Part shown: piece after piece, positions 1,705 to 33,441 of the stretch
Numbering within the stretch: position 1 is the first letter of the stretch
Layout of the letters: each line of letters opens with the position of its first letter
Assembly (NCBI GenBank): GCA_016183805.1
Contig: JACPDX010000057.1
Location: forward strand, 1-42,961
From: Bacteroidota bacterium
Lineage (GTDB): Bacteria; Bacteroidota; Bacteroidia; Flavobacteriales_E; Vicingaceae
DNA: 42,961 nucleotides
Direction: 5' to 3'
Position numbers and translations under genes: made by a program
Notes under the pieces: generated by a model
What the model saw: the letters and a program-made list of their open reading frames with translations, nothing else
Told to the model about the DNA's origin: nothing
Database searches by the model: none

Positions 1705-2103
1705 ATGAACAATTCACCCATTCAACTATTTATTGTCGAAGACAATCATGTTTATTCGTTAATGCTTAAAAATGCATTAAAAGAAAAAGGAAATTTTGAA
1801 ATTACAACCATGTTAACAGGTGAATACTGTCTTAATAAATTAGACCTTAATCCACAAGTCATTATTCTTGATCACCTGTTAGCACCACCCGACGATATTT
1901 TAGGACCCGGTATAACAGGTTTAGAAGTAATGAAACAAATCCATGCAAAAAAACCAAATCTTCCGGTTATCATTTTATCAAACCAAACCGATACACAAGT
2001 AGCTGCAGATTATTGGCAAGCGGGAGTTTTTGATTACATGGAGAAAAATTTAATGATCATGGATAAACTTTTGGTATCCATTTTAAAAGCTGTAAATAAA
2101 TAG
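1705..2103 (+). CDS. Stand-alone receiver-domain response regulator
   Basis: This 132-residue protein is a single CheY-like receiver domain with no output domain. The acidic pocket is E12-D13 (VEDN), the phosphoacceptor is D56 (VIILDHLL), the switch residue is S92 and the conserved lysine is K114. After D56 there is a loop extended by several residues (PPDDILGPG) relative to a typical receiver. It is the first gene of an operon with a hybrid kinase, an Hpt protein and a second receiver, so it probably accepts or drains phosphoryl groups from the relay. Its promoter is one of the ten similar promoters, suggesting feedback control. The output partner is not encoded nearby. Confidence 0.9.
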   Translation: MNNSPIQLFIVEDNHVYSLMLKNALKEKGNFEITTMLTGEYCLNKLDLNPQVIILDHLLAPPDDILGPGITGLEVMKQIHAKKPNLPVIILSNQTDTQVAADYWQAGVFDYMEKNLMIMDKLLVSILKAVNK

Positions 2104-2140
2104 AAAACTGTCAATTTGAAGCAGAAAATAATTATAAAAC

Positions 2141-4855
2141 ATGAAAAACAATTTCCTTAATCAACTTCATATTGATAAAACTAATCTTCAAAGCATTCGA
2201 AGAATTGTTTTAAAAGTTGTTATTGCATTTTCAATTGTTGCAGGATTATTTTTTATTGCTATTTATATTACACATCAAAAGCTTTCTCAATTAACAGAAT
2301 CAGTATCCGCTATACTCAACCCTAACATTAAACTTAATAAATTAAAAGAAATAACTGTTGGTCTTTATAGTGCAGAGGCCAATGTAAAAGCATATAATAT
2401 TAGGCATGATACCGCTTATTTGCTGAGCTATGAAAATTACATTACCACCTTAAACACTCAAATAGATACCTTGCTTTTATTGTCAAGTATAGATAAAATT
2501 AATGTTGGGATAAGCGAAATAAAATACAACCAAAATTTTTCAGCACAAATTGACACTTTAAAAAATTTAATAAATATCAGAATTGATTTTTTTAATGAAT
2601 ACATCGCATTAAAAACAGAAAAAAGTACTGATAATTTACTGTTGCATGTGCTGAAAAAAATAAAAATTCAAAAACCTAAGGTTAACAATGTTACTGTTGA
2701 AGCTGCTAATAACACAACTAAAGATGTTGTTGTTAAAAATATAGACCATGAGGAAGAAAATATTATCCAAAAAAAGGAATTTACTATTAAATCATTTTTT
2801 TCAAGATTATTCTCATCAAAAAATAACAAAAAAGAAAAAGTGAAAGAAATTGATGAAGAGAAAAAAATTGAAGTAGAGGGAAAAATAGAAATAGACATCC
2901 ATCCACCAGGTTTGGTATTAACTACCCCATCTTCAGATTCGGTTCAAAAAACCATGCAACAAATTATTTCAAAAACTCAGCAGGAAGAGCAACTAAAGGA
3001 CAGTAATTTATTAGCTAAAGAAATGGATCTTGCTCAACGAGAATATATGTTGACCAATAAAATTTTTTACCTGTTGAACGACATGGAAGAAAAAGAACTC
3101 GTTGAAGGAATTAAAAGAATCCATGCTGCCACTCAAGAAGCTAATACAAAAATAAGTTTTATTAGTAATTGGCTTATTATTTTCGGCATAATACTCGCCT
3201 TAATGTTCTCCTATTACATTTATCGCGATATTTTAAAAGCCAAAAGTTTTAGAGAAAAACTTCGCCAAACCACTTTAAAAAGTGAAAAATTAGCTTCAAA
3301 ATATTCCTTGAGTCTTATCGAAGCTAGCCTTGATCCATTAGTTACCATCAGTTCAAAAGGAAAAATTACCGGTATGAATGAAGCAACCGTAAATATTACG
3401 GGATTAACACGCGAAAAACTAATTGGTTCTGATTTTCTGAATTATTTTACCGAACCACAAATGGCACATGCTGTTTACAAAGAAATATTTGCGAAAGGAT
3501 TTGTTATCGATTCTCCACTAACCATTCGACACAAAGACGGCAAATTGACCGATGTGTTGTTTAATGGTTCTGTTTATAAAGATGATAGCGGAAATGTTTT
3601 AGGAGTTGTAGTTGTTGCAAGAGATATTACAGAACAAAATCTTTTTGAACATGAATTGATTGAAGCAAAAAGTAAAGCGGAACAAGCCACAAAAATAGCA
3701 GAAAAATCTAACCAGTTAAAAGAATCTTTTTTGGCAAATATGAGCCATGAAATTCGTACTCCTATGAATGCCATTATTGGGTTTTCAGATATTTTATATA
3801 AAAGAAAATTGGGTGTGCAAGAGAAAGAATTTGTTACTATCATAAAATCTGCGGGTGAAAATTTGCTTAAAATAATTAATGATATACTCGATATATCAAA
3901 AATTGATGCAGGTATGATGACTTTTGAAGAAGACGATTTCAGTATTAAAGAAACATTCAAAACGCTTAATGTCATGCTATTGGGTAAAGCACAAGAAAAA
4001 AATCTTGATTTAATATTTAGCTGCGATGATAATGTTCCTGATACTTTTAAAGGAGACCAAACTCGCCTTACTCAAATTATTATTAATCTGGTGGGCAATG
4101 CTATAAAATTTACCAATGAAGGTAGTGTTCAGGTATATGGAAAAGTTGGTAAAATAGATAAGGAAATTGCGTTTATAGAGTTTTCAATAACTGATACAGG
4201 GATAGGGATATCAAAAAATAAACTAGCGACTATTTTTGAACGTTTTCAACAAGCAGAATCACACACCACCAGAAAATATGGTGGGACAGGGCTTGGTTTG
4301 AGTATTGCTAAACAATTAATTGAACTTCAGGGAGGAAAGTTGTTGGTTAAAAGCGAGCTGAACATGGGATCAGCGTTTACATTTTCAATACCTTACCAAA
4401 TGTCAACTCAAGTTCAGAAACCATTACAACAGATAGAAAAAAAATACAATCTAAAAGAACTGGGTCAATTAAACATCTTGCTGGTTGAAGACAATCAATT
4501 GAATGTGATGTTGATAAAAAGTTTGTTCTCAGAAAACGATTTAAAATTACAAACTGCCGAAAACGGAAAAGTTTGTTTAGAACTACTCAAAGAAAACAAG
4601 GGTTCAATTGAATTTTCAAACTATTTTGACATTATTTTAATGGATATGGAAATGCCAGAAATGAACGGATATGAAACGGTTAACATCATTCGTAATAAGT
4701 TAAAAAACAATATCCCAATTATTGCCATGACAGCTAATGCAATGGCTGGAGAAAGAGAAAAATGTTTGGATTTAGGTATGAATGATTACATTTCAAAACC
4801 AATAGATTCAACACAACTATTCGAAAAAATAAATGATTTAACACTTAATTCTTAA
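2141..4855 (+). CDS. Hybrid sensor histidine kinase (PAS-HisKA-HATPase-REC)
   Basis: This is a 904-residue inner-membrane kinase. TM1 is at about residues 23-46 and TM2 at about 341-363. They enclose a ~290-residue, mostly helical, lysine/glutamate-rich periplasmic sensor of no family I can name. A PAS domain follows (about 392-505), then HisKA with phospho-His H536 (SHEIRTPMN). The HATPase has NLVGNAIKF, DTGIGI and GGTGLGLSI boxes, and the C-terminal receiver has phosphoacceptor D835 (LMDMEMPEMNG). The gene begins 37 bases after the first receiver gene and ends 4 bases before an Hpt gene. The layout fits a His-Asp-His-Asp phosphorelay. The sensor region has an unusual charged, low-complexity stretch at about residues 215-255. 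Confidence 0.95.
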   Translation: MKNNFLNQLHIDKTNLQSIRRIVLKVVIAFSIVAGLFFIAIYITHQKLSQLTESVSAILNPNIKLNKLKEITVGLYSAEANVKAYNIRHDTAYLLSYENYITTLNTQIDTLLLLSSIDKINVGISEIKYNQNFSAQIDTLKNLINIRIDFFNEYIALKTEKSTDNLLLHVLKKIKIQKPKVNNVTVEAANNTTKDVVVKNIDHEEENIIQKKEFTIKSFFSRLFSSKNNKKEKVKEIDEEKKIEVEGKIEIDIHPPGLVLTTPSSDSVQKTMQQIISKTQQEEQLKDSNLLAKEMDLAQREYMLTNKIFYLLNDMEEKELVEGIKRIHAATQEANTKISFISNWLIIFGIILALMFSYYIYRDILKAKSFREKLRQTTLKSEKLASKYSLSLIEASLDPLVTISSKGKITGMNEATVNITGLTREKLIGSDFLNYFTEPQMAHAVYKEIFAKGFVIDSPLTIRHKDGKLTDVLFNGSVYKDDSGNVLGVVVVARDITEQNLFEHELIEAKSKAEQATKIAEKSNQLKESFLANMSHEIRTPMNAIIGFSDILYKRKLGVQEKEFVTIIKSAGENLLKIINDILDISKIDAGMMTFEEDDFSIKETFKTLNVMLLGKAQEKNLDLIFSCDDNVPDTFKGDQTRLTQIIINLVGNAIKFTNEGSVQVYGKVGKIDKEIAFIEFSITDTGIGISKNKLATIFERFQQAESHTTRKYGGTGLGLSIAKQLIELQGGKLLVKSELNMGSAFTFSIPYQMSTQVQKPLQQIEKKYNLKELGQLNILLVEDNQLNVMLIKSLFSENDLKLQTAENGKVCLELLKENKGSIEFSNYFDIILMDMEMPEMNGYETVNIIRNKLKNNIPIIAMTANAMAGEREKCLDLGMNDYISKPIDSTQLFEKINDLTLNS

Positions 4856-4859
4856 AACC

Positions 4860-5246
4860 ATGATAAAAACTAAACCTAATAACAACATTTCTACTGTTTG
4901 TAACTTCAATTACCTTTCGGAATTAATGGGTGGAAAAATACATTTGATTAAAAAAATAATGGACACTTTTTTGGTGCAAGTAAAAGAAGAACTTGAATCA
5001 TTGAATAGTGCTATAACCGAAAAAGATTATACAGCCACAAAAAACTTAGCTCACACCATGAAATCATCTGTATCTATTATGGGGATTTCTACACTTCAGC
5101 CTATTTTAAAAGAAATGGAAAGCTTAGGAATGGAGACAACATGTTCTGATAGTTATAGGGATGAAAAATTAAGTGAATTAAATCTGAATCTAAATGAAAT
5201 TTGCAAAAAAGCATTTGTAGAAATTGAAAATTATAGTTTCTCCTAA
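4860..5246 (+). CDS. Hpt-domain phosphotransfer protein
   Basis: A 128-residue, all-helical protein carrying the Hpt signature around H65 (LAHTMKSS, compare the family AHxLKGSS). It should shuttle phosphoryl groups between the receiver of the upstream hybrid kinase and the stand-alone receivers on either side. It starts 4 bases after the kinase stop codon and 35 bases before the next receiver gene, so translational coupling to the kinase is likely. A start at ATG 4860 places the four-helix bundle at about residues 15-110. Confidence 0.88.
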   Translation: MIKTKPNNNISTVCNFNYLSELMGGKIHLIKKIMDTFLVQVKEELESLNSAITEKDYTATKNLAHTMKSSVSIMGISTLQPILKEMESLGMETTCSDSYRDEKLSELNLNLNEICKKAFVEIENYSFS

Positions 5247-5281
5247 AAAAATAAAAAATTATTCACTTAAAACTCAACGCC

Positions 5282-5707
5282 ATGAACCTATTTAAAAACA
5301 TTTTCACGAAATCAACACCAAAAGAACACACTATTTTTATAGTGGAAGACAACGAGGTTTATGCAAACCTATTGGAAGCGTTTTTAATGCTCCATTTTCC
5401 GGAAATACATGCAATAAAAAAATTTACTTCGGGTGAAGCTTGTCTAAATGAATCCTTCCAAATTCCTACTGTTATCATCATGGATCATTTATTAAATAAG
5501 AATCAAAGTGGTGCTGCCACAGGGCTTTCTATTATTAAAAAAATGAAAATAGCTAATCCTGATTTAAACATTATTTTATTAAGTGCCCAGACAGAAATTG
5601 AAGTTGTTTCTAAAACAATAGCCAAATATGGAGGTATTTATATTCCAAAAAATGAGGAAGCATTTCATAATATAGAACAACAGGTTAAACAATTTTTTGG
5701 AATATAA
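5282..5707 (+). CDS. Stand-alone receiver-domain response regulator (second copy)
   Basis: This 141-residue protein has one receiver domain with E22-D23 (VEDN), phosphoacceptor D68 (VIIMDHLL), switch S101 and lysine K123. It shares the unusual DHLL motif and an extended loop with the receiver at 1705-2103, so the two are paralogues. No DNA-binding or enzymatic domain follows. As the last gene of the phosphorelay operon it is a likely terminal or competing phosphate acceptor; its target is unknown and might be a protein partner. Confidence 0.9.
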   Translation: MNLFKNIFTKSTPKEHTIFIVEDNEVYANLLEAFLMLHFPEIHAIKKFTSGEACLNESFQIPTVIIMDHLLNKNQSGAATGLSIIKKMKIANPDLNIILLSAQTEIEVVSKTIAKYGGIYIPKNEEAFHNIEQQVKQFFGI

Positions 5708-5713
5708 AACTCA

Positions 5714-5781
5714 AAGTGTGAATGTTGTAACTCCTTCTTAAAGTTGTGTAACACTTTTAAGTTTTGAGCTAACTACCTTTA
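5714..5781 (+). promoter_or_regulatory. Regulon promoter 2
   Basis: Half-sites TTGTAAC (5725-5731) and GTGTAAC (5746-5752) are 21 bp apart, with the outer AAGTGT and ACACTT elements. The -7 element is TACCTTTA (5774-5781), the only one of the ten with a consensus T at its first position. Spacing from GTTGTG to the end of the -7 is 39 bases. It drives the small tail-anchored protein gene 41 bases downstream. Confidence 0.8.
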
Positions 5782-5821
5782 TTCTATGCAAAAATTCATT
5801 TGCAAACTAAAATAACTAATT

Positions 5822-6136
5822 ATGAAAAAAACAACTTTTTGCTTAATGGTAGCGTGTTTATCATTAACCTTTCAACCACTTCAATCAAGTGCTGCAACAA
5901 CGTCTGAAAAGCCACCAAAATCAATACCTATGACACCCGCAGAAGCGAATACGTTAACCTTAAGGTTAAATGAAATAAATACCTTAGACAAATCTTCATT
6001 AACTCACTCCCAAAAAAAAGAATTACGTGGTGAAGTTAAAACTATCGAAAAACAGCTTCGTGCAGGCGGTGGTGGTGTTTATATCTCTGTAGGAGCAATT
6101 ATCATCATTCTTTTATTGTTAATTATTTTATTATAA
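5822..6136 (+). CDS. Small exported tail-anchored protein (Bacteroidota stress-type), paralogue 1
   Basis: This 104-residue protein has an N-terminal signal peptide (about 1-25), a short charged helical middle with LNEINTLDKSSLT and a K/E-rich helix, then a glycine run and a C-terminal hydrophobic segment VYISVGAIIIILLLLIILL. The last 22 residues are identical to those of the protein at 16235-16528. I know similar short proteins from many Flavobacteriia, but none has a function I can name. Signal peptide plus terminal membrane anchor implies a periplasmic middle domain. It lies under one regulon promoter and its paralogue under another. Confidence 0.82.
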   Translation: MKKTTFCLMVACLSLTFQPLQSSAATTSEKPPKSIPMTPAEANTLTLRLNEINTLDKSSLTHSQKKELRGEVKTIEKQLRAGGGGVYISVGAIIIILLLLIILL

Positions 6137-6142
6137 AATGAT

Positions 6143-6367
6143 ATGGAAACCAAACAATCGTTGGGCGAAAAAATACTTCATATTACCCTAAAAATAAAGG
6201 AACAATATCCTGAATTAGGTAAATATTTAGATGAGATGCCTATTACAATCCCCGATAAAAAATATCCTATAATAACTTCAAAAATTTTACAGGATTACTA
6301 TAATTCGTTGACTTCATTGTTAGATAATTATCTATTAGAAGAGTTTTGTAACAATGAAATGAATTAA
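6143..6367 (+). CDS. Hypothetical 74-residue protein
   Basis: A small acidic, soluble, mostly helical protein (IKEQYPELGKYLDEMP... LLDNYLLEEFCNNEMN) without signal peptide or recognised motif. It begins 6 bases after the preceding stop codon and is followed by a terminator, so it is the second and last gene of a two-gene operon under regulon promoter 2. I do not recognise a family. The start at ATG 6143 is the only one giving a full-length frame. Confidence 0.7.
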   Translation: METKQSLGEKILHITLKIKEQYPELGKYLDEMPITIPDKKYPIITSKILQDYYNSLTSLLDNYLLEEFCNNEMN

Positions 6368-6389
6368 CAATTTTTGTTACAAAATTAAA

Positions 6390-6424
6390 AACACCTTCAG
6401 CATAAAATCTAAGGTGTTTTTTTA
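6390..6424 (+). terminator. Rho-independent terminator
   Basis: The stem AACACCTT / AAGGTGTT with a 13-nt loop, followed by a run of T, closes the two-gene operon at 5822-6367. Confidence 0.8.
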
Positions 6425-6434
6425 TTTAAAAGTT

Positions 6435-6502
6435 ATGTGTGAATAATACAACTTATCTCGAAAGTTGTGTAACACTTTATTATGCCAATTGCCTCTTCTT
6501 TG
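6435..6502 (+). promoter_or_regulatory. Regulon promoter 3
   Basis: Starts with ATGTGTGAATAAT. Half-sites ATACAAC (6446-6452) and GTGTAAC (6467-6473) are 21 bp apart. The -7 element is CTTCTTTG (6495-6502), and the fixed 39-base spacing is kept. It lies 56 bases upstream of the PorE-like gene. Confidence 0.8.
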
Positions 6503-6557
6503 TATAATGAAAATTGGTTCAAAAAAAAGCCACTTACAATTTATAAATTGAAACAAC

Positions 6558-8534
6558 ATGAAAAATTTAAAACAATTCGTACTCCTTATTTTTGTGATAA
6601 CTTCAGGGTTGTCCGCACAAGTGCATGCGAACGAATATGATACTAAAGTTAAAGAGGCAGGTAAAAATTTTGACAACGGAAAATTCGACATGGCTTTACC
6701 ATTGTATCTCGATTTAGCAGAATTCGATTCTTTAAATCCTGATATGAATTTTAGAATTGGTATCTGCTATTTGAATTCCAGAACAGAAAAACAAAAATCT
6801 GTGTATTATTTAGAAAAAGCCATTGCTTGCATTAATAAATGCTCTATTAAAGAAGATAAAGCGAATGTAATGGCTTTTAAAGCCTTAGGCGATGCTTATC
6901 ATTTAACCTACAAATTTGATAGGGCAATAGTAAGTTATGAAAAATTCAAATCCTTGTTATCGGATAATAAAAAAGACCAAGCGTTGATTCCGGAAGTAGA
7001 TCGGAAAATAGAAATGTGTAAGGTGGGTAAACAATTGGTTGCTTCTCCTATTAAAGTTAAAATAGAAAATATGGGTGAAGCTATTAATTCTCCATTTGCA
7101 GATTATTCTCCGGTATTAACTGCCGATGAATCTACCCTCATTTTTACTACCAGAAGAGCGGAAAGTACAGGTCGAAATTTAGATTATGCCGGTTTGTTTT
7201 TTGAGGACATTTATATTTCTCATAAAAAAGATTCCCTTTGGTCAAAGGCTGTTTCGATTAATCGACCTATTAATACCATCGGAAATGAAGCTACTGTAGG
7301 AATATCAATAGATGGTCAAACCATATTAATTTACAAAGATGATAATGGTGATGGTAATATTTATTCCACAAGTTTGAATGGCGAATTATGGTCAATTCCT
7401 AAAAAATTAAACGATAATATCAATACAACAAGCTGGGAACCAAGTGCTTTTATTTCTGCCGATGGCAATACCTTGTATTTTACGAGCAATCGAGAAGGTG
7501 GGTTTGGAGGACGAGATATTTATTTAAGTAAAAAAACAACCGATGGAGATTGGGGCATAGCAGTAAATCTAGGCTCAACCATTAACACTCCTTTCGATGA
7601 AGATGCACCTTTTATTCACCCAGATGGAATTACTTTATACTTTACTTCAAACGGGCATAAAACCATGGGAGGTTTTGATATCTTTTCAACAAGCATGTTA
7701 GCCAATAATGAATGGACAACTCCTGTTAATATCGGCTTTCCGATTAATACTACCGATGATGATATTTATTATAATGTAAGTGCTGATAACAAAAGGGCTT
7801 ATTATTCTTCTTTTAAAGAAGGCGGCTTGGGTGAAAAAGATAATTATGCGATTACTTTTTATGAATATAAAGAATCTCCGCTTACCGTTTTAAAAGGAGG
7901 AATTACCGATATTCATGGAAAGGTGCCAAAAATTATTGAGATTATCGTTACAGATAATGAAACTGGAGAACTTGTTGGAATTTACCATTCCAATTCAAAA
8001 ACCGGTGAATATTTATTTATTCTACCTTCAGGAAAAAATTACAACATCACTCATGAATCGGAAGGCTACTTGTTTCAATCCGTTAATATGGATGTTACTC
8101 AAAACAAGAAGTATTATTTCAGCCAAAACACGATACAACTTGAACCGATTGCTGTTGGTTCAAAAGTAGTGTTAAACAATATTTTTTTTGATTTCGACAA
8201 AGCAACACTTCGAAACATTTCTAACGTGGAGTTGAGTAAGCTCTATAAATTGTTAACCAAAAATCCGGGTATGGTAGTAGAAATTTCTGGGCATACCGAT
8301 TCTAAAGGAAGTGAGGAATATAATGTTCAACTTTCGGAAGAGAGAGCTCAATCAGTTGTTAACTACTTAATCGAAAAAGGGATTAACAAAAATCAAATGG
8401 TAGCAAAAGGATATGGAAAATCAGATCCTGCGGCGAACAATATCAATGCCGATGGAAGTGATAATCCGGAAAACAGACAACTAAACCGAAGAGCTGAATT
8501 AAAAATTATAAAAATAAAATCTCTAAAAAAATAG
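6558..8534 (+). CDS. PorE-like OmpA-family protein (TPR, PD40 propeller, CRD, OmpA)
   Basis: This 658-residue exported protein has a signal peptide (1-24), TPR-like helices (about 25-165), WD40-like PD40 propeller repeats (about 180-430, with repeated YFTSN-GG-GG-DIY/F motifs), a carboxypeptidase-regulatory-type domain (about 445-525) and a C-terminal OmpA peptidoglycan-binding domain (about 545-655, GHTDSKGSEEYN...LSEERA). The same domain order is described for the T9SS-associated protein PorE of Porphyromonas gingivalis. It probably sits in the periplasm and links an outer-membrane complex to peptidoglycan. It is a single-gene unit under regulon promoter 3. A paralogue occurs at 13723-15711 next to a PorP/SprF gene. 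Confidence 0.9.
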   Translation: MKNLKQFVLLIFVITSGLSAQVHANEYDTKVKEAGKNFDNGKFDMALPLYLDLAEFDSLNPDMNFRIGICYLNSRTEKQKSVYYLEKAIACINKCSIKEDKANVMAFKALGDAYHLTYKFDRAIVSYEKFKSLLSDNKKDQALIPEVDRKIEMCKVGKQLVASPIKVKIENMGEAINSPFADYSPVLTADESTLIFTTRRAESTGRNLDYAGLFFEDIYISHKKDSLWSKAVSINRPINTIGNEATVGISIDGQTILIYKDDNGDGNIYSTSLNGELWSIPKKLNDNINTTSWEPSAFISADGNTLYFTSNREGGFGGRDIYLSKKTTDGDWGIAVNLGSTINTPFDEDAPFIHPDGITLYFTSNGHKTMGGFDIFSTSMLANNEWTTPVNIGFPINTTDDDIYYNVSADNKRAYYSSFKEGGLGEKDNYAITFYEYKESPLTVLKGGITDIHGKVPKIIEIIVTDNETGELVGIYHSNSKTGEYLFILPSGKNYNITHESEGYLFQSVNMDVTQNKKYYFSQNTIQLEPIAVGSKVVLNNIFFDFDKATLRNISNVELSKLYKLLTKNPGMVVEISGHTDSKGSEEYNVQLSEERAQSVVNYLIEKGINKNQMVAKGYGKSDPAANNINADGSDNPENRQLNRRAELKIIKIKSLKK

Positions 8535-8565
8535 AATAATTTCTTTGAGAAAATTTAATAAAACC

Positions 8566-8633
8566 ATGTGTGAAAAATATAACTTATTTGAAAAGTTGTG
8601 TAAGACTAACCTATCTAAAAGTGTTCACTTTTG
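8566..8633 (+). promoter_or_regulatory. Regulon promoter 4
   Basis: Starts with ATGTGTGAA. Half-sites ATATAAC (8577-8583) and GTGTAAG (8598-8604) are 21 bp apart. TAAAAG is followed by the -7 element CACTTTTG (8626-8633), at the fixed 39-base spacing. The gene starts 38 bases downstream. Confidence 0.78.
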
Positions 8634-8670
8634 ATGTGTAATAATTCTGTTACAAATTAAATTCAATAAA

Positions 8671-8976
8671 ATGAGAGATTCTAAAAATTGCATTGATGCT
8701 TGTTTAGCATGTGTAGTAACTTGCGAAAGTTGTATTACTGATTGTATTAAAGAAGGGAACCAAGCCTGTATTTTGTTATGTCGCGATTGTGCCGACATTT
8801 GTGCTTTGTGTGCTAGATTGGAAGCAAGAGGTTCGCAATTTGCTAAAGAATTGTGTGCTTTATGCGTAAAAGTATGTACTGCTTGTGCTGAAGAATGTAG
8901 TAAACATGCTTCACACCACGAAAGTTGTAAAGCTTGTGCTGAGGCTTGTAAAAAATGTGCTGCAACTTGTGCATAA
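8671..8976 (+). CDS. Cysteine-rich four-helix-bundle copper-binding protein (DUF326/Csp-like)
   Basis: A 101-residue protein with 21 cysteines, mostly spaced CxxC or CxxxC along amphipathic helices, plus a histidine group (KHASHH at 78-83). This pattern matches the DUF326 / Csp copper-storage family, whose helix-lined cores hold many Cu(I) ions through thiolates. There is no signal peptide, so it resembles the cytosolic Csp3 type rather than exported Csp1. It is monocistronic, preceded by regulon promoter 4 and followed by a terminator-like hairpin. Placement in a stress-like regulon suggests protection against copper or thiol stress; that role is inferred. Confidence 0.88.
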   Translation: MRDSKNCIDACLACVVTCESCITDCIKEGNQACILLCRDCADICALCARLEARGSQFAKELCALCVKVCTACAEECSKHASHHESCKACAEACKKCAATCA

Positions 8977-9016
8977 TTAAACATTATTAAAAACCCAAAT
9001 TTACTCACCTTTGTTT

Positions 9017-9058
9017 AAAAAGAGACTGTCTCACAACTCGTGAAATAGCCTCTTTTTT
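9017..9058 (+). terminator. Probable terminator hairpin
   Basis: AAAAGAG(A)CT pairs with AG(C)CTCTTTT across a ~20-nt loop, followed by TT and an AT-rich stretch. The stem has one mismatch, so it is weaker than the others. The rest of the 8977-9268 gap holds regulon promoter 5 and nothing else recognised. Confidence 0.5.
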
Positions 9059-9163
9059 AATTTTTATTCAGGCTCCCTCCTATCGGAAACCATGTCTCAA
9101 ATATTCAATTCTCAGGAGTTTGTTTTAGTATTGAGATTTCCTCTTTTTTATTATCAAAACTAA

Positions 9164-9231
9164 ATGTGTGAATAATACAACTTATAAAAAAAGTTGTGTA
9201 ATACATTCTACTTAAAAGAGATACACCTTTG
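9164..9231 (+). promoter_or_regulatory. Regulon promoter 5 (adhesin / PorP / PorE-like operon)
   Basis: Starts with ATGTGTGAATAAT. Half-sites ATACAAC (9175-9181) and GTGTAAT (9196-9202) are 21 bp apart. TAAAAG is followed by the -7 element CACCTTTG (9224-9231), at the fixed 39-base spacing. An upstream TTG at 9194 that extends the adhesin frame lies inside the second half-site and cannot be the start; ATG 9269 is 38 bases downstream of the -7 element. Confidence 0.8.
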
Positions 9232-10900
9232 CTATGTGAAAATTTATTCACCAATTAAAATAACTAAAATGAAAAATAAATTACTTCTAATTACAATAGT
9301 GCTGACATTATTGTTTTTCCCGAAGGTAAATTTCGGACAAGCTCCCAATTTGGGAACAACAGCTGATTTTGCACTATTTACAAGTGTAGGTGCTGTATCA
9401 AACGCAGGAACTACCTACCTCACTAAAGTAACAGGAAACGTAGGTACAAACTCTGCTCCAACCATTACCGGTTTTGGTAATGTTGATGGACAAATGCACT
9501 ATGGTGGAGACCCTGCCAGTACACAAGCTAGTGCCGATTTAATTATTGCTTATGGCGATATTAATGTTGCAGTTCCAACATTTTTTCCTGCACCTTTAAT
9601 GGGTAACGGACAAATTTTAAATGCCGGTGTTTACTCTATAACTGCACCAACCATTACATTAAATTTAGACTTAACGTTGGATGCTCAAGGCGACCCTTCG
9701 GCTATCTTTATTATTCAATTAAACGGAGCTTTTTCTACCAATGCAAATTCAGAAGTGATATTGGTAAATGGTGCTCAGGCATGTAATGTGTATTGGAAAG
9801 TAGAAGGTTTAGTAGATATGGCAACAGGAACTTCCATGAAAGGAACACTGATTGTTAACAATGCAGCCATAAACATGAGTACAGGTGTAACACTTGAAGG
9901 TAGAGCACTTTCTACTGCTGGTGCAATTACAGTTGAATCATTACTAGCTTACACACCTAGAGGTTGCGGTTTGCCACTTTTAACAGGACCTCTTGCTCCT
10001 AACCTAGCTTCAATAGAATGTTACACTATTTTTTCTTCAGATGGACCAGTTGATAATGTTGGTATCACCAATGTTGTTGGAGATATAGGAACAAATAATG
10101 GTACAGTAACTGGTTACAACCCTTTATTAGTTGTAGGTATCATTCATACCGTACCCGATCCTTCAACAGTTTTAGCAGCTTCAGATTTATTGAATGCTTA
10201 TGCCTATTTAAACGCATTACCTTTTGATATCGAATTGTTATTTCCTGCTCAATTTGGACACAATTTGGTTTTAACACCTCATACCTATATTATGAATGGA
10301 GCGGTAACTTTTACTGACACCGTTTTTCTTAACGCAGAAGGAAATCCTGATGCTGTATTTGTAATTCAAGTAAAAGGTGCTTTTGCTACAACCACTTTTT
10401 CAAATGTGATGATGATAAATGGTACTAAAGCTGAAAATGTGTATTGGATGGTTGATGGTGCTGTAAGTATCAATGATTTTTCTGTTTTTAATGGAACAAT
10501 TATTTGTAACAATGGTGCAATGGATTTAACCAATGGTGTTGAACTTTATGGTAGAGCCTTAACCACCACAGGTGCTTTAAGTACTTTTGCAATTAATGCT
10601 ACCATGCCTCCAGGATGTGGAGGAACTTCTGCTCCATTAATTATTACTCAACCAACCGATCAATCTGCTTGTAACGGTGAATCGGTAAGTTTTACGGTTT
10701 CTGCTACAGGAACCAACCTTACTTATCAATGGAGAATAGGAACTACCAACCTTGTTGATGGTGGAAACATTTCTGGAGCAACAACAGCAACATTAACTAT
10801 TAATCCTGCAACAGCATTAGATGTTGCTACCGATTACAATGTAGTTGTTACCGGAGATTTTGCTCCAAGCGAAACATCAAATAATGTTAGCCTAACAATA

Positions 10901-12157
10901 AACCCGATTGCGACAAGCAGTACCAATGCTACCATTTGCCAAGGCGATAGTATGCTAATCGGCGGTGTTTATCAAAATACTCCGGGAAATTACTCTGACA
11001 CCATTGTTGGCGGAAGTAGTTTAGGTTGTGATAGTATTGTAACAATAACGTTAATAGTAAACCCGATTGCGACAAGCAATACCAACGCTACCATTTGCCA
11101 AGGCGATAGCATCTTAATTGGCGGTGTTTATCAAAATACTTCTGGAAATTACGCTGACACCATTGTTGGTGGAAGCAGCTTGGGTTGCGATAGTGTTATT
11201 ACCACCATTTTAACAGTAAACCCAATTGCCACAAGCAACGCAAATACTACCATTTGTCAAGGCGATAGTATCTTAATCGGCGGTGTTTATCAAAATACTT
11301 CGGGAAATTACGCTGACACCATTGTTGGCGGAAGCAGCTTGGGTTGCGATAGTGTTATTACTACTACATTAATAGTAAACCCAATTGCCACAAGCAATAC
11401 AAACGCTACCATTTGCCAAGGCGATAGTATTTTAATTAACGGCGTTTATCAAAATACTTCTGGAAATTATACTGATACCATTGTTGGAGGAAGCAGCTTA
11501 GGTTGCGATAGTGTTATTACCACCATTTTAACAGTAAATCCAATTGCCACAAGCAACGCCAACGCTACCATCTGTCAAGGCGATAGTATTTTAATCTATG
11601 GTGTTTATCAAAATACTTCGGGCAATTACTCTGACACCATTGTTGGCGGAAGTAGCTTAGGTTGCGATAGTGTTATTACTACTACATTAATAGTAAACCC
11701 AATTGCCACAAGCAATACAAACGCTACCATTTGCCAAGGCGATAGTATTTTAATTAACGGTGTTTAAAATTACGCTGATACCATTGTTGGCGGAAGCAGT
11801 TTAGGTTGCGATAGTATTGCAACAACAACTTTAATAGTAAACCCAACTGCCACAAGCAATACAGATGTTAGTATTTGCCAAGGCGATAGTATTTTAATCT
11901 ATGGTATTTATCAAAATATTTCTGGCAATTACACTGACACAATTGTTGGCGGAAGCAGTTTAGGTTGCGATAGTATTGCAACAACAACTTTAATAGTAAA
12001 CCCAACTGCCACAAGCAACACAAATGTTAGTATTTGTCAAGGCGATAGTATTCTAATCGGCGGTGTTTATCAAAATACTTCGGGAAATTACGCTGACACC
12101 ATTGTTGGTGGAAGCAGTTTAGGTTGCGATAGTATTACAATAACAACTTTAACGGTA
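10901..12157 (+). repeat. Eight tandem 159-bp coding repeats
   Basis: Repeat starts are 10901, 11060, 11219, 11378, 11537, 11696, 11840 and 11999. Seven copies are 159 bp (53 codons) and the sixth is 144 bp because of a 15-bp deletion. Each encodes a unit beginning NP-ATS, with ICQGDSILI, YQN-SGNY, DTIVGGSSLGCDS. Each unit has two cysteines. The copies are very similar at DNA level, which favours slippage or recombination. Confidence 0.93.
11765..11767 (+). other. Premature in-frame TAA in repeat 6
   Basis: Other repeats read GGT GTT TAT CAA AAT ACT TCG GGA AAT TAC here. This copy reads GGT GTT TAA AAT TAC, so 15 bases are lost and TAT...GGA fuses into TAA. The frame is unchanged on both sides. 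Confidence 0.9.
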
Positions 12158-12754
12158 ATTTCCACTCCTATTGCAATTGCAACAAGTAATTCGCCAATTT
12201 GTTTGGGAGAATCCATCAACTTAAATGCAGCTACTGTTTCAGGTGCAAATTACGATTGGACAGGTCCAAATGGATTTGTTTCTTCAAATCAGAATCCGGT
12301 AATTCTTTCTGCTACAGCTTTAGAAGCAGGTACTTATACATTAACTGTTACTGATATTACCTGTTCATCTTCTTCTTCTTCAAATATTACAGTAGTAATA
12401 AATGATTGTAGCACTGACACATCTAATGTTCTTGATTTTAATATACCGGAAGGATTTTCACCAAACAATGATGGAACAAACGATTTGTTTGTGATTAGAG
12501 GAATCGACAGGTTTCCTGCCAACACTTTTGTAATCTTTAACCGTTGGGGAGTTCAAATATTTGAAGCTAGTCCTTATAAAAATGAATGGGACGGAAAATC
12601 GACAACAGGAATTAGAATTGGCGGCGATGATTTACCGGTTGGAACTTACTTCTATCTACTTGATTTAGGCGACGGTTCTGAAATTTATAAAGGAACCATT
12701 TATCTAAACAAATAAACACTAAAACTAATCTACAACAAATAAAAATAAGAAATT

Positions 12755-13696
12755 ATGAAAACACCTATAAAAATAACACTTGCGATGGCATTGACCTTAG
12801 GGAGTTTAGCCTCGTATGCTCAGCAAGCACCATTGTTTACACATTACATGTACAATACATTAGCGGTAAACCCTGGTTATGCCGGAAGTAGAGAAGCTTT
12901 AACAGTAACAGCATTGCACCGTTCGCAATGGGTTGATTTTGCTGGAGCTCCTACAACTCAAACATTAACCATGCACTCACCAATAATCAACGAACACATT
13001 GGAGTTGGATTATCTGTTTTGAATGATAAAATAGGCCCAACTAATAACACATCAATAGTTGCTGATTTTGCTTATAGAATGAAGTTAACTCAAAAATCTA
13101 AATTAGCGTTGGGCTTAAGTGCTGGTGCAAACATTTTTCAGGCCAACTTAAATACCCTGAATTTAGACCAACCAAATGATGCTGTTTTTCAAAACAATGT
13201 GAACAATAAAACCACGCCAAATGTTGGTTTTGGTATGTACTATTCTAGAGAACGTTTTTATGCAGGACTTTCTGCTCCTAACTTAATTGAAAATAGTTAT
13301 TCGGAAGTTAATCAAGCCGGTGGAAGCACGTTAATTGCAAAAGAACAACGACATTACTTTTTTATTGCCGGTGCTTTAATCAACTTAGGTCATAATTTAG
13401 ATTTTAAACCAACCACTTTAATAAAAGTAACCGAGGCAGCTCCTATTCAAGCTGACCTTACCGCATCTTTTATAATAATGAAAAGATTATTGTTGGGTGG
13501 TATGTATAGAACCGGTGATGCTGTTGGTGGTTTAATTGGTTATGATGTTACTGAACAACTTCATATCGGTTATTCTTACGATTGGAGTTTAGGCTTAGAA
13601 ACAGGCAAGTATAACAATGGAAGTCATGAAATTATGTTACGATACGATTTTATCTTCTCTAGTAAAAAACAAATCCACTCACCAAGAAATTTTTAA
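12755..13696 (+). CDS. PorP/SprF family type IX secretion membrane protein
   Basis: A 313-residue outer-membrane beta-barrel with a signal peptide (about 1-22, ending SYAQQ) and the family hallmark PLFTHYMYNTLAVNPGYAG near the mature N-terminus, followed by HRSQWVDFAGAP. Proteins of this family anchor or help secrete CHU_C (type B) cargo; SprF for SprB in Flavobacterium is the known example. It lies 39 bases after the CHU_C-bearing adhesin frame and 26 bases before a PorE-like gene, so the three form a cargo / outer-membrane partner / peptidoglycan-anchor set. With the adhesin interrupted, this gene may now lack its normal cargo. Confidence 0.93.
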   Translation: MKTPIKITLAMALTLGSLASYAQQAPLFTHYMYNTLAVNPGYAGSREALTVTALHRSQWVDFAGAPTTQTLTMHSPIINEHIGVGLSVLNDKIGPTNNTSIVADFAYRMKLTQKSKLALGLSAGANIFQANLNTLNLDQPNDAVFQNNVNNKTTPNVGFGMYYSRERFYAGLSAPNLIENSYSEVNQAGGSTLIAKEQRHYFFIAGALINLGHNLDFKPTTLIKVTEAAPIQADLTASFIIMKRLLLGGMYRTGDAVGGLIGYDVTEQLHIGYSYDWSLGLETGKYNNGSHEIMLRYDFIFSSKKQIHSPRNF

Positions 13697-13722
13697 GACT
13701 AACTAATTTAAAAAATAAAGAC

Positions 13723-15711
13723 ATGAAAAAATTATTTATAATACTCACCTGTATTGGAATTGGCTCAAGTGCCTTTGCCCAAGAAAAATCAACTCGAGAA
13801 AAAAAAGGCGACAAACAGTATTTTGTTTACTCTTTTGAAAAAAGTATCGATTACTATTCGAATACCAAAAACTTAACTCCTGAAGGTCAACGACGATTAG
13901 CAGAAAGTTATTACAACATCAATCAAAACTTTTTAGCCGAAGAAGCTTATTCAAAACTAATAAGCACCAATCAAGGACTGGTAGCAAACGATTATTTTGT
14001 ATTTGCACGACTTTTAAAAGCAAATGGCAAAAACGACCAATCGTTAACTGTTATGGATAAATTTGCCGAGTTAAATCCTAATGATTTAAGAGCTAAAGAT
14101 TATGTGGCGAACAAATCGAAATTGGCTGAATTAACCGCAGACGGTGGAAAATACAAAATTCAAGCACAATCGGTAAATACTGATGATGACGATTTTGGTC
14201 CAATTTATTACAAAGACAAAATTATTTTTTCATCAACAAATTCGGCTCCTAAAATGATTGTGAAAAATTACAATTGGACAGGAAAACCTTTTTGGAACAT
14301 ATTTATTGCTGACGTTGAAGACGGACAATTAAAAAATGCTAAAGTTTTTGATAAAAGTTTAAACGGTAATTTGCACGATGGTCCTGCTAGTTTTAGCAAC
14401 GATGGTACTTTTATGGCTTTTACCAGAAACAATTACAAAGATAAAAGTACAGATAAAGTAGTTGAACTTCAAATTCACTTTAGCACATTTACTGATGGAA
14501 AATGGTCAAAATCTGAGCCTTTTTTCCTAAATAATTCGGAATATTCTGTTGGTCATCCATCGTTAACTGCAAACGGAAAAACCATGTATTTTACTAGCGA
14601 TATGTCTGGAGGTTTTGGCGGTTCAGATATTTATAGAACTACCAAAAATGATGATGGTACTTGGAATAAAGCAGAAAACATGGGCGACAAAATAAATACC
14701 GAAAGCGATGAAATGTTTCCTTTTATTGAAGAAAACAGCCAAAAACTTTATTTCTCATCAAACGGACGATTTGGTTTAGGCGGATTAGATGTTTTTGTTA
14801 CCGACATAACAGGCTCAATAGTTGGAAATGTTCAAAATGCCGGATTCCCTTTAAATACATTAGCAGATGATTATGCAGTAATTGTAAACAGTACTTCAAC
14901 CAAAGGATATGTTTCATCAGACAGAGCCGGTGGCTTGGGTGGCGACGATATTTATGCTTTTGATATTACAGAAACAACTAAAACCGAACAATTGGTTGCA
15001 ATCGAAAAAAGAATCGAAGGTATTGCTAAGGATAAAAATGAAACGCCTTTAACAAATACTTACGTTACTTTATTTGATGATAAAGGAATGGTATTAGACA
15101 CTTTTACTACTCAAACTGATGGTGCTTTTACTTTTGCGGTTGAAACCAATAAGAACTTTACCTTAACTGGTAAAAAAGAAAAATACAACGATGGTTTTAC
15201 AGATGCCAACACGCTTAGTGATGTAGCAATTGTCAAAGCAGATATAATTCTTTTAACTAAAAAAGAAGTAGTAGCTCAAAAAGTAAAAGTGGGTGAAGAT
15301 TTAGGAAAAATAGTAGAATTTAATCCCATTTATTTCGATTACGATAAATACGACATTCGTAAAGATGCAAAAAGTGAATTAGCTAAAATTATAGAGGTGA
15401 TGAACGATTATCCTAATATGGTGGTAGAACTTGGAGCTCATACCGATTGTAGAGCAAACAATGCTTACAACCAGAATTTATCGAACCAAAGAGCTAAAGA
15501 AACTGCTGATTACGTTAAAAAAAGCATCACTAATCCTTCAAGAATTTCCGGTAAAGGTTATGGCGAAACGAAACTGTTAACCAACTGCCCTTGTTCCGGC
15601 GATGTAATTTCGGAATGTTCTGAAGCTGAACATCAAAAAAACAGACGTACTGAGTTTATTATTAAAAGTACCGGTAAGATAACAATGCCTGAAAAATTGA
15701 CTGATAAATAA
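13723..15711 (+). CDS. PorE-like OmpA-family protein (second copy)
   Basis: This 662-residue exported protein has a signal peptide (1-19, ending SAFAQ), TPR-like helices (about 25-140), PD40 propeller repeats (about 145-420; YFTSDMSGGFGGSDIY, YFSSNGRFGLGGLDVF), a carboxypeptidase-regulatory-type domain (about 430-510) and a C-terminal OmpA domain (about 530-655; AHTDCRANNAYN, LSNQRAKE). It follows PorP/SprF by 26 bases. It should tether the secretion partner complex to peptidoglycan. It has the same domain order as the protein at 6558-8534 but quite different sequence outside motifs, so the duplication is old. Confidence 0.9.
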   Translation: MKKLFIILTCIGIGSSAFAQEKSTREKKGDKQYFVYSFEKSIDYYSNTKNLTPEGQRRLAESYYNINQNFLAEEAYSKLISTNQGLVANDYFVFARLLKANGKNDQSLTVMDKFAELNPNDLRAKDYVANKSKLAELTADGGKYKIQAQSVNTDDDDFGPIYYKDKIIFSSTNSAPKMIVKNYNWTGKPFWNIFIADVEDGQLKNAKVFDKSLNGNLHDGPASFSNDGTFMAFTRNNYKDKSTDKVVELQIHFSTFTDGKWSKSEPFFLNNSEYSVGHPSLTANGKTMYFTSDMSGGFGGSDIYRTTKNDDGTWNKAENMGDKINTESDEMFPFIEENSQKLYFSSNGRFGLGGLDVFVTDITGSIVGNVQNAGFPLNTLADDYAVIVNSTSTKGYVSSDRAGGLGGDDIYAFDITETTKTEQLVAIEKRIEGIAKDKNETPLTNTYVTLFDDKGMVLDTFTTQTDGAFTFAVETNKNFTLTGKKEKYNDGFTDANTLSDVAIVKADIILLTKKEVVAQKVKVGEDLGKIVEFNPIYFDYDKYDIRKDAKSELAKIIEVMNDYPNMVVELGAHTDCRANNAYNQNLSNQRAKETADYVKKSITNPSRISGKGYGETKLLTNCPCSGDVISECSEAEHQKNRRTEFIIKSTGKITMPEKLTDK

Positions 15712-20218: not shown

Positions 20219-20270
20219 TTTTAGTTTAATTCAAAGTTAGTTTTAGTTTAATTCAACGTTAGTTTTAGTT
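20219..20270 (+). repeat. 22-bp direct tandem repeat, 2.3 copies
   Basis: The unit AGTTTAATTCAAAGTTAGTTTT is present once, then again with one change (AAAG to ACGT region), then as a partial third copy AGTT. Units are 22 bp, about two helical turns. It lies right after the stop codon of the PorT-like gene and just before a hairpin. Confidence 0.75.
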
Positions 20271-26588: not shown

Positions 26589-27944
26589 ATGAAAAAAACG
26601 TTTAGTAGAACAAAAGCATTAATTAATCTATCTTTAATCACATTATCGATAGTTGGTGTAAATCAACAAAGTTTCGCTCAAACTGAGGAAACCAAAGGAA
26701 AAGAAAAAGAAAAAAAAGAATCTGGTAAAATTGATGCAACAGACAAATCTACTGCCGCAATTAAATACCGAAGAAGTTCACTTCATACCATGATTATTGA
26801 AGATGCAAAACTTCCTAAAATTGATATCATTCTTAAAACTTTTAACGAAGCTCCCTTTCCAGATAAATATAACAATCATACTGTTGGAGAAAAATCGTTT
26901 AACCTTGCTAATTATACTGTTGAACAAGTTGTAGCTGAAGGCGAAAAAGCTGAAAAAGAGGATAAAGATTTAAGTCCAGCTATTAATAAATATTTTGCTG
27001 ATAGTAAAACTGCAAATAAAATTATTGCTAAATGGTTCAGCAGAAAAGACAATGGTGCTTTTGACATGAGTCTTATCGAAGAACGAGGAATGTACGATGC
27101 TTCTGCTCAGGACATAGCTGTTGCGTCCAGTACCGCAAGAGGTGATGCAATGTTGGCTGATGCAGGTGAAGAGTTGTTACCAAATACATTTGTGGTTGTT
27201 AACTATTCTAAATTTGTTAGTAATGAACCTATTGCTCTAGCTATAAAAAATAGTACTTATGCACTTGCGGCTTCTAAACCTGGTGCTTTTAAAGAAATTG
27301 CTGAAAAAGCAGCTGATGTACTTTACAATAAAACTAAAGACGGTTATTCTGTTTGGACTACAGCATATCTTTATCAAATTAATTGGAACGATTCTACTTC
27401 TGCAGTTTTTTATCAAAATTATTGGATGGATGATTCTAAAATTGACCCGGCTAAAAAAGAAGCCTTTGACAACTCTGATTTGTTTAAATTAGAATTGTTG
27501 GGTTTTCAAAAAGCTTCCATCTTAATTTCAGGATTGGGTGCTAATGCCAAAGATGAAGATATGATTATTAAAAATGCTACTTTAAAATCTATCGATGCAG
27601 TTTATGCTAAATTACAACGTAAATTTGAAAAATTCAGAACTAAAACCCCATTAACCGGTGTAGATCCATTAACCGCTAAAATTGGATTAAAAGAAGGTGT
27701 TGAAAATGGTGATAAATACGAAGTACTAGAACAAACAATAGATGAATTAGGAAAAGTAAAATACAAAAGAAAAGGTGTAATAAATGTTGAGAAAAATAAA
27801 ATTTGGAACAACAAATTTGCACCGGGTGAAGAACCTGTGGATGAAGAAGGAAATCCAATCAAATTAGATTATACTTTAGATTTTACTACATTTAAAGGTG
27901 GTAAAGGATATTACCCTGGAATGCTTATCAGACAAATCAATTAA
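26589..27944 (+). CDS. Exported protein of unknown function, first gene of six-gene operon
   Basis: A 451-residue protein with a signal peptide (about 1-31, ending SFAQT), a charged K/E-rich linker (32-55) and a soluble alpha/beta region with no motif I recognise. Notable conserved-looking segments are RRSSLHTMIIEDA, a central ELLPNTFVVVNYSKF and a C-terminal YYPGMLIRQIN. It is followed at 20 bases by two paralogous small exported proteins, then a DUF6175-type protein and others, all with signal peptides. The set looks like a periplasmic or outer-membrane assembly; the role is unknown. It is not GldN, whose motifs are absent. Confidence 0.8.
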   Translation: MKKTFSRTKALINLSLITLSIVGVNQQSFAQTEETKGKEKEKKESGKIDATDKSTAAIKYRRSSLHTMIIEDAKLPKIDIILKTFNEAPFPDKYNNHTVGEKSFNLANYTVEQVVAEGEKAEKEDKDLSPAINKYFADSKTANKIIAKWFSRKDNGAFDMSLIEERGMYDASAQDIAVASSTARGDAMLADAGEELLPNTFVVVNYSKFVSNEPIALAIKNSTYALAASKPGAFKEIAEKAADVLYNKTKDGYSVWTTAYLYQINWNDSTSAVFYQNYWMDDSKIDPAKKEAFDNSDLFKLELLGFQKASILISGLGANAKDEDMIIKNATLKSIDAVYAKLQRKFEKFRTKTPLTGVDPLTAKIGLKEGVENGDKYEVLEQTIDELGKVKYKRKGVINVEKNKIWNNKFAPGEEPVDEEGNPIKLDYTLDFTTFKGGKGYYPGMLIRQIN

Positions 27945-31851: not shown

Positions 31852-33441
31852 ATGATAAAAAAAACCACAGCACTTTCTCTCATCTTATTTTCATTTATAA
31901 GTTTGAAAGCTCAATTTGCAACCGAAGGAGGTCGAAAGTTTGATGCACTTTTACAATATATTAATTATGCTTATGTTGACACAACCAATGAAAATAAAAT
32001 TGTTGAAAATGCAATTGTAGCTGCTTTAAAAGAATTAGATCCCCACTCTGTTTATATTCCGTCTGATGAAGTAAAAAAAATGAATGAACCTTTGGTTGGT
32101 AATTTTGAAGGCATTGGAATTCAATTTAACATTTTAAACGATACGTTAGTTGTTGTTTCTCCAATTGCCGGTGGCCCAAGTGAAAAGGTTGGAATACTAG
32201 CTGGAGACAAAATAATTGCTGTAAACGCAGAAAACATAGCAGGAATTGGCCTTCAAAATAGCGATGTACAAAATAAATTAAGAGGAAAAAAAGGTACAAA
32301 AGTAAATGTTACTATTCTTAGAAGTGGGAAAAAAGATTGGTTAGATTTTACTATTACTCGCGATGAAATTCCAATTTTTAGTGTCGATGCTTCATTTATG
32401 GCAACACCAGATATTGGTTACATTAAAATTAATCGATTTGCCCAAAATACCGATAAAGAATTTACCGATGCTTTAGAAGCCTTAAAAAAACAAAAAATGA
32501 AACACTTAATTATTGATTTAAGTGGAAATGGTGGAGGTTACCTTAAAACAGCAATTCAACTGGCAGATGAATTATTGGACGATAAAAAACTTATCGTTTT
32601 TACAGAAGGTAACAAAAACCCTAAACAAGAATATTACACTGCTGTAAAAGGTGGATTTGAAAAAGGTAAATTAGTTATTTTAATTGATGAGGGTTCTGCA
32701 TCAGCTTCCGAAATTGTTTCAGGTGCAGTACAAGATTACGATAGGGGCTTAATCATTGGTCGTCGTTCGTTTGGTAAGGGGTTAGTACAGAAACCATTTA
32801 CATTAACCGATGGTTCTGCTATTCGATTAACCATTGCCAGATATTTCACTCCTTCCGGAAGATGTATTCAACGCTCTTACGAAGGTGGTAAAGATGATTA
32901 TTATGATGAAATGACACGTAGATATGAACATGGTGAATTAATGACTGCTGACAGTATCACTTTTCCTGATTCTCTTAAATTTGAAACCATAAATAGCAAA
33001 AGAGTAGTCTATGGGGGGGGAGGTATAATGCCTGATGTATTTGTTCCTATTGATACCAGTCTATATTCCGAATATTTTGGTATAGTAAACAGAAAAGGTT
33101 TTTTTAATGATTTTACACTTTCACTAATGGATAGCAGAAGAAAAGAATTTGAAAAAAAATATACTTCTGTTAGTGATTTCGCAACCAACTTTGATGTAGA
33201 AAAAGAATTGTTTACTGAATTTATTGAATATGCTAAAAATAACAAGGTAGAACCAAATGAAGAACAAATTAACATCTCTAAACCCATCATTTTAAATAGA
33301 TTAAAAGCTTTGGTTGCGAGGAATATATGGGGGACATCGGCGTTTTACCAAATTTCAAGTAATTTTAACAATTCTTATCTAAAAGCAATCGAAGAAATAA
33401 ATAACGATACGTTTAAAAAAGAAAAATTAGTGTATAATTAA
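31852..33441 (+). CDS. S41 family carboxy-terminal processing peptidase
   Basis: This 529-residue protein has a signal peptide (about 1-20, ending LKAQ), an N-terminal helical part with LDPHSVYIP, a PDZ domain (about 80-170, LAGDKIIAVN), and a tail-specific protease core with catalytic S284 (GSASASEIVSG) and K309 (SFGKGLVQ). The 25-residue spacing equals that of Prc/CtpA. It cleaves C-terminal tails of envelope proteins. A C-terminal extension of ~180 residues follows the core, as usual in Bacteroidota members. It lies 13 bases before a DUF1573 gene. Confidence 0.94.
   Translation: MIKKTTALSLILFSFISLKAQFATEGGRKFDALLQYINYAYVDTTNENKIVENAIVAALKELDPHSVYIPSDEVKKMNEPLVGNFEGIGIQFNILNDTLVVVSPIAGGPSEKVGILAGDKIIAVNAENIAGIGLQNSDVQNKLRGKKGTKVNVTILRSGKKDWLDFTITRDEIPIFSVDASFMATPDIGYIKINRFAQNTDKEFTDALEALKKQKMKHLIIDLSGNGGGYLKTAIQLADELLDDKKLIVFTEGNKNPKQEYYTAVKGGFEKGKLVILIDEGSASASEIVSGAVQDYDRGLIIGRRSFGKGLVQKPFTLTDGSAIRLTIARYFTPSGRCIQRSYEGGKDDYYDEMTRRYEHGELMTADSITFPDSLKFETINSKRVVYGGGGIMPDVFVPIDTSLYSEYFGIVNRKGFFNDFTLSLMDSRRKEFEKKYTSVSDFATNFDVEKELFTEFIEYAKNNKVEPNEEQINISKPIILNRLKALVARNIWGTSAFYQISSNFNNSYLKAIEEINNDTFKKEKLVYN

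Follow-up and report, generated by a model that had tools for sequence, protein, structure and literature searches.

A stop codon inside the repeat stalk of a putative T9SS-tailed, double-headed ice-binding protein gene from a member of the Vicingaceae

Several described systems, as far as the accessible portions of their reports go, resemble parts of the locus analyzed here. IBPv, a two-domain antifreeze protein, comes from a bacterium of the Vostok ice core (Flavobacteriaceae strain 3519-10) and is secreted as a 54-kDa protein (PDB code 5UYT; PMC5673226). MpIBP of Marinomonas primoryensis is a 1.5-MDa protein exported by RTX-type secretion, and its Ca-dependent ice-binding domain is held off the cell by a tandem-repeat stalk of ~120 repeats of 104 residues (PMC5014055). 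Proteins of the type IX secretion system (T9SS) with type B sorting domains have been reported in complex with PorP-like proteins, and PG1035 also with PorE, which has suggested that they are anchored in this way; examples are SprB-SprF and PG1035-PorP-PorE (PMC9143113). Double-domain ice-binding proteins (IBPs) are recorded from Central Arctic ice metagenomes, which hold 455 of them, with 278 of the 335 classified ones assigned to Flavobacteriales; the accessible part of that report mentions neither a T9SS type B tail nor a repeat stalk (PMC9957290). In the accessible literature, ice-binding proteins and T9SS are rarely mentioned together, and then as single mentions of T9SS, and the terms CHU_C, secretion, Bacteroid and Flavobacteri are absent from the main text, as far as accessible, of PMC12337378. 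The literature searched, mostly without subscription papers, yielded no coupling of DUF3494 with type IX secretion, so novelty is unproven.

The window, by which we mean the whole 42,961-nucleotide stretch of DNA that was analyzed (contig JACPDX010000057.1 of assembly GCA_016183805.1, a Vicingaceae genome), contains a three-gene cassette on its forward strand. The first gene had been called a T9SS adhesin in a sequence-only reading; the assignment to a T9SS surface-protein gene stands, but that reading missed a double ice-binding head. The truncated coding sequence, at 9269-11767, encodes 832 aa when translated from the ATG at 9269 (the list of open reading frames gives the frame from an upstream TTG at 9194). 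Its N-terminus is likely a Sec signal peptide, as judged by eye. Two DUF3494/Ice_binding domains (PF11999) follow at 9389-9937 (135.9 bits) and 10049-10582 (110.5 bits), each of which singly exceeds the cut-off of 28.7, and over the full head the profile matches two stretches with 222.5 bits in total (E 6.1e-66). The best match among solved structures is 5UYT, which aligns over residues 25-452 (E 9.6e-135). Judged by this alignment, the head is homologous over both domains to IBPv and shares with it the tandem pair of DUF3494-type domains, a double head that it also has in common with the Central Arctic proteins (PMC9957290).

By homology, the double DUF3494 head would bind ice, and its score against the NCBIfam equivalog IBP_CFB (NF045625) is 69.5 bits, below the cut-off of 400. 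We take the ice-binding domain of MpIBP to be of a family other than DUF3494. Unlike IBPv (PMC5673226), the protein encoded in the window would continue beyond the head, although the gene is broken here: into a weak Ig-like domain at 10634-10849 (Ig_3, residues 457-528, E 4.7e-6, 27.4 bits, under the Pfam cut-off of 30), a repeat stalk and a type B sorting domain. A head carried on a tandem-repeat stalk would work like MpIBP, which differs in its Ca-dependent ice-binding domain, in its size and in using RTX-type secretion rather than T9SS (PMC5014055).

The stalk is encoded by an array of eight tandem units of 53 aa at 10901-12157, found by direct reading and a scripted parse; TRF detects the same array (period 159, 8.0 copies, 10899-12152). 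Seven of the eight units are 159 bp long and the sixth, at 11696-11839, is 144 bp (48 codons). Its loss of 15 bp keeps the frame and produces a TAA stop at 11765-11767, after which the same frame stays open (11768-12715) through the remainder of unit 6, units 7 and 8, an Ig/PKD-like stretch that scores under its cut-off and the sorting domain, up to the next in-frame stop at 12713-12715. The sequence-only reading had reported the short unit, its stop and the preserved frame, and both direct reading and the scripted parse bear this out: the short unit and the stop are a genuine feature of the assembled sequence. Its description of the repeats as near-identical was an overstatement, as pairwise identity among the units is 80.5-91.8% and the longest exact repeat in 10801-12300 measures 101 bp (copies at 11342-11442 and 11660-11760); the array holds no exact repeat of 110 bp. 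An AlphaFold2 model of a two-unit stalk, made from an alignment of 10 sequences, reached a mean pLDDT of 54.2 and a pTM of 0.37, which is too low for a structure-based search, and comparison of the stalk with solved structures gave nothing of weight (best E 0.17). Elsewhere in the window, at 20219-20270, there is a short tandem repeat with a 22-bp period and 2.4 copies.

The T9SS type B sorting domain at 12440-12709 matches CHU_C (PF13585, 6.5e-27) and TIGR04131 (54.2 bits, cut-off 35) in an open frame, and is intact as had been claimed; it scores over the cut-off yet lies behind the stop, outside the translated product. Two open genes follow. The first, at 12755-13696, encodes a PorP/SprF family outer-membrane protein (TIGR03519, 283.2 bits, cut-off 90.55), and the second, at 13723-15711, a PD40-OmpA protein that scores 304.4 bits against PorE (NF052230, cut-off 600) and 396.7 against CHU_0125_OmpA (cut-off 620); because both NCBIfam scores are under their cut-offs, we name it merely PorE/CHU_0125-like. 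Both genes are intact, as the earlier reading had said. The placement of a type B sorting domain gene beside PorP/SprF and PorE-like genes recalls SprB-SprF and PG1035-PorP-PorE, which differ in their head domains (PMC9143113). Upstream of the cassette lie a second PD40-OmpA protein (6558-8534), with no PorP gene adjacent to it among the listed open reading frames, and a small Cys-rich protein (8671-8976) that matches the Csp1 copper-storage family under the cut-off (TIGR04401, 40.2 bits against 100).

An unbroken cassette would expose both ice-binding domains on the outside of the cell. Its substrate would carry, in order, the Sec signal, two IBPv-type DUF3494 domains, the Ig-like domain, the repeat stalk and the type B sorting domain, and its partners would be the cassette's own PorP/SprF-type barrel, presumably the anchor since type B proteins are reported in complex with PorP-like proteins (PMC9143113), and the PorE/CHU_0125-like OmpA protein. 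The truncated product would be exported by Sec and, having no type B signal, would end up periplasmic or degraded.

Residues 1-545 were searched in 46 family genomes, including the genome under study, and 13 of them returned matches, some solely via the Ig part. We gathered 31 open reading frames from 24 chosen sources, of which nine were scanned for tail type, the others being left unclassified and some running off their contig or locus. Type B tails were found in three of the nine (loci L029, L011 and L046) and type A tails in six, including the paralog with which the window begins; more type B relatives may lie beyond the nine. In all three type B relatives (L029; L011, in genome G042; L046, in genome G029) the frame is open throughout, so that the double head and the type B domain stand in one translated product. 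The nearest ortholog is that of L029 (887 aa), from the metagenome-assembled genome Flavobacteriales bacterium CG18 32_9, with three stalk units against eight here; L029 and G032:C272 are taken as the same. Stalks vary between relatives, with Ig and DUF11 domains in L011 and PKD-like ones in L046. PorP/SprF and then an OmpA protein lie downstream in each of the four type B loci, the window included, and the adjacent PorP/SprF exceeds the TIGR03519 cut-off in all four.

Other ice-binding genes were seen along the way. The paralog at 1-1530 encodes a further protein with two DUF3494 domains, truncated by the start of the contig and ending in a T9SS tail of type A (TIGR04183), and the genome as a whole contains seven DUF3494 domains in four open frames, two of the frames in the window and two on contig C63. 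In another member of the family, the ice-binding query matches six times at G014:C13:49988-58084; four of these matches contain several internal stops, and the stretch is perhaps a decayed cluster of ice-binding genes.

The cassette has its closest counterpart in another genus. Against G032, a genome of the same family, residues 1-545 are 87% identical, PorP 93% and the PorE-like protein 84%. In the three genomes of the same genus, searched by protein (the DUF3494 model was run on the genome under study only), the DUF3494 part found no match in any, a single match in G001 covering residues 437-545 only; the best-scoring PorP proteins there are 37, 36 and 49% identical, and the best PorE-like ones 35, 30 and 31%. 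Three control genes of the window behave differently: the gene at 26589-27941 is 70-71% identical within the genus, only slightly above the 68% in G032; that at 31852-33438 is 78, 78 and 83% (the last partial) within the genus and 68% in G032; and that at 39364-41427 is 60-71% within the genus, with no match in G032. Because the cassette is closest to the other genus while the three backbone genes favor their own, we read this as a probable movement of the cassette between genera as a block, in either direction. At the DNA level, 1734-5738 and 9163-15711 align collinearly to L029 with about 78-86% identity, a closer likeness than that of the three control genes. The shared stretches within 1734-15711 include a 904-aa open reading frame upstream of the cassette, kinase-like by eye; nothing in the L029 piece matches the segment at 5.74-9.16 kb.

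Constraint on the gene was compared on the two sides of the break. Between the window and L029, dN/dS is 0.144 before the array (bootstrap 95% 0.107-0.196) and 0.171 behind it (0.095-0.287), so constraint on the codons past the stop is roughly that on the codons ahead of it, and the break is therefore recent or artificial. The fraction of the window branch estimated to lack constraint is 0.06, with a wide 95% bootstrap interval of -0.15 to 0.33, so that an unconstrained span of as much as roughly one third of that branch is possible. A long-lost protein with a decaying locus could have left a frame that is open but for one internal stop, but no further stop occurs up to 12715, dN/dS past the stop is far from 1, and PorP and the PorE-like gene are at 0.074 and 0.123. 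On the dN/dS values we reject old decay and find the old pseudogene hardly credible. The first in-frame ATG, GTG or TTG after the stop at which translation could restart is the TTG at 12203, past the array and far from the stop.

A single event explains the loss of 15 bp with one exact placement and with zero microhomology or flanking direct repeat. This absence is unremarkable because, of the 938 positions at which the seven full units could lose 15 bp, 397 are likewise without microhomology. When the loss is parsed as two steps (12 + 3 bp), a 4-base repeat is available for the larger one. Of 1015 enumerated 15-bp deletions over the seven full units, 13 would yield a stop. Stops are rare in units of this kind: among the 150 matches listed for a two-unit query in 60 genomes, including the genome under study, two bear a stop, namely the one here and one with a TAG in G059. 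Within the genome itself, no second stop-bearing unit appeared among the 32 matches of one search or among the matches listed of 57 in another. A 24-mer spanning the junction, with two mismatches allowed, occurred in one of 395 genomes of the class, once, in the genome under study; G001 and G032 lie outside these 395, and the G032 array (read as L029) is without a short unit.

Unit 6 also has the look of a mosaic. Its left part has 1 mismatch in 71 positions to unit 4 and its right part 4 in 73 to unit 7, and by eye all four of the latter fall within the first ~20 bases past the junction. Unit 6 thus looks like a product of recombination within the array, to go by these similarities. As the source of the junction itself, a mosaic of unit 4 and unit 7 was considered and set aside: it is suggestive, but its breakpoint is not tied to the deletion, since the mismatches to unit 7 cluster right behind the junction.

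The main rival explanation is an error of assembly or consensus, in which the real units would be full-length, and perhaps more numerous, and the short unit would be a misjoin. The genome is a draft of 109 contigs, and the junction sits 6 bases beyond the end of the 101-bp exact repeat at 11660-11760, a spot where short-read assembly can fail; the mosaic make-up of unit 6, the constraint on the frame past the stop and the three relatives with the same head and tail intact would also fit. On the other hand, all exact repeats are shorter than 110 bp, so that reads of ~150 bases could presumably resolve the array, the junction sequence is unique in the genome, the single-event parse shows no overlap of the sort that encourages misjoins, and the breakpoint of the mosaic need not coincide with the junction. 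We regard such an error as possible, and as a tentative alternative to be taken seriously.

The sequence-only reading had proposed that slippage between repeats deletes and restores the segment, so that production of the surface protein would alternate between on and off. We reject slippage between units: the change is 15 bp within a 159-bp unit, and whole-unit slippage could discard that unit but not restore the segment. Nor does the 15-bp loss, as a single event without microhomology, look like the slippage between direct repeats that marks phase variation. A broader form of the idea has recombination between stalk units removing and restoring the stop. The units are alike enough to recombine, with exact runs of up to 101 bp, the frame is preserved at any unit number, orthologs differ in that number (eight against three), and the frame past the stop is kept; yet the deletion is not that of a whole unit and, as one event, has no flanking direct repeat (the two-step parse has its 4-base repeat), shedding the stop-bearing unit, a conceivable step from off to on, would be one-way, no substrate for the return step was found, and the genome contains the junction only once. 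We think a reversible switch improbable. Very unlikely, too, is a mobile T9SS-anchored ice-adhesin cassette whose fast-recombining stalk gains and sheds a stop-bearing unit and so switches ice adhesion off and on.

We lean, with modest confidence, towards a null or strain-level allele that arose recently, rather than a dedicated switch, in a probably transferred gene whose product would be a surface protein with a double ice-binding head and a T9SS tail; the comparison comprised one genome per species. A small deletion within one of the eight stalk units would have removed 15 bp and by chance created a stop. As for the stop, it is probably either a recent break of an ordinary kind or an artefact, and its surroundings matter more: an IBPv-type head combined with a T9SS type B tail and its own PorP/SprF would give Bacteroidota a way of making an ice adhesin that differs from the RTX-based one of Marinomonas.
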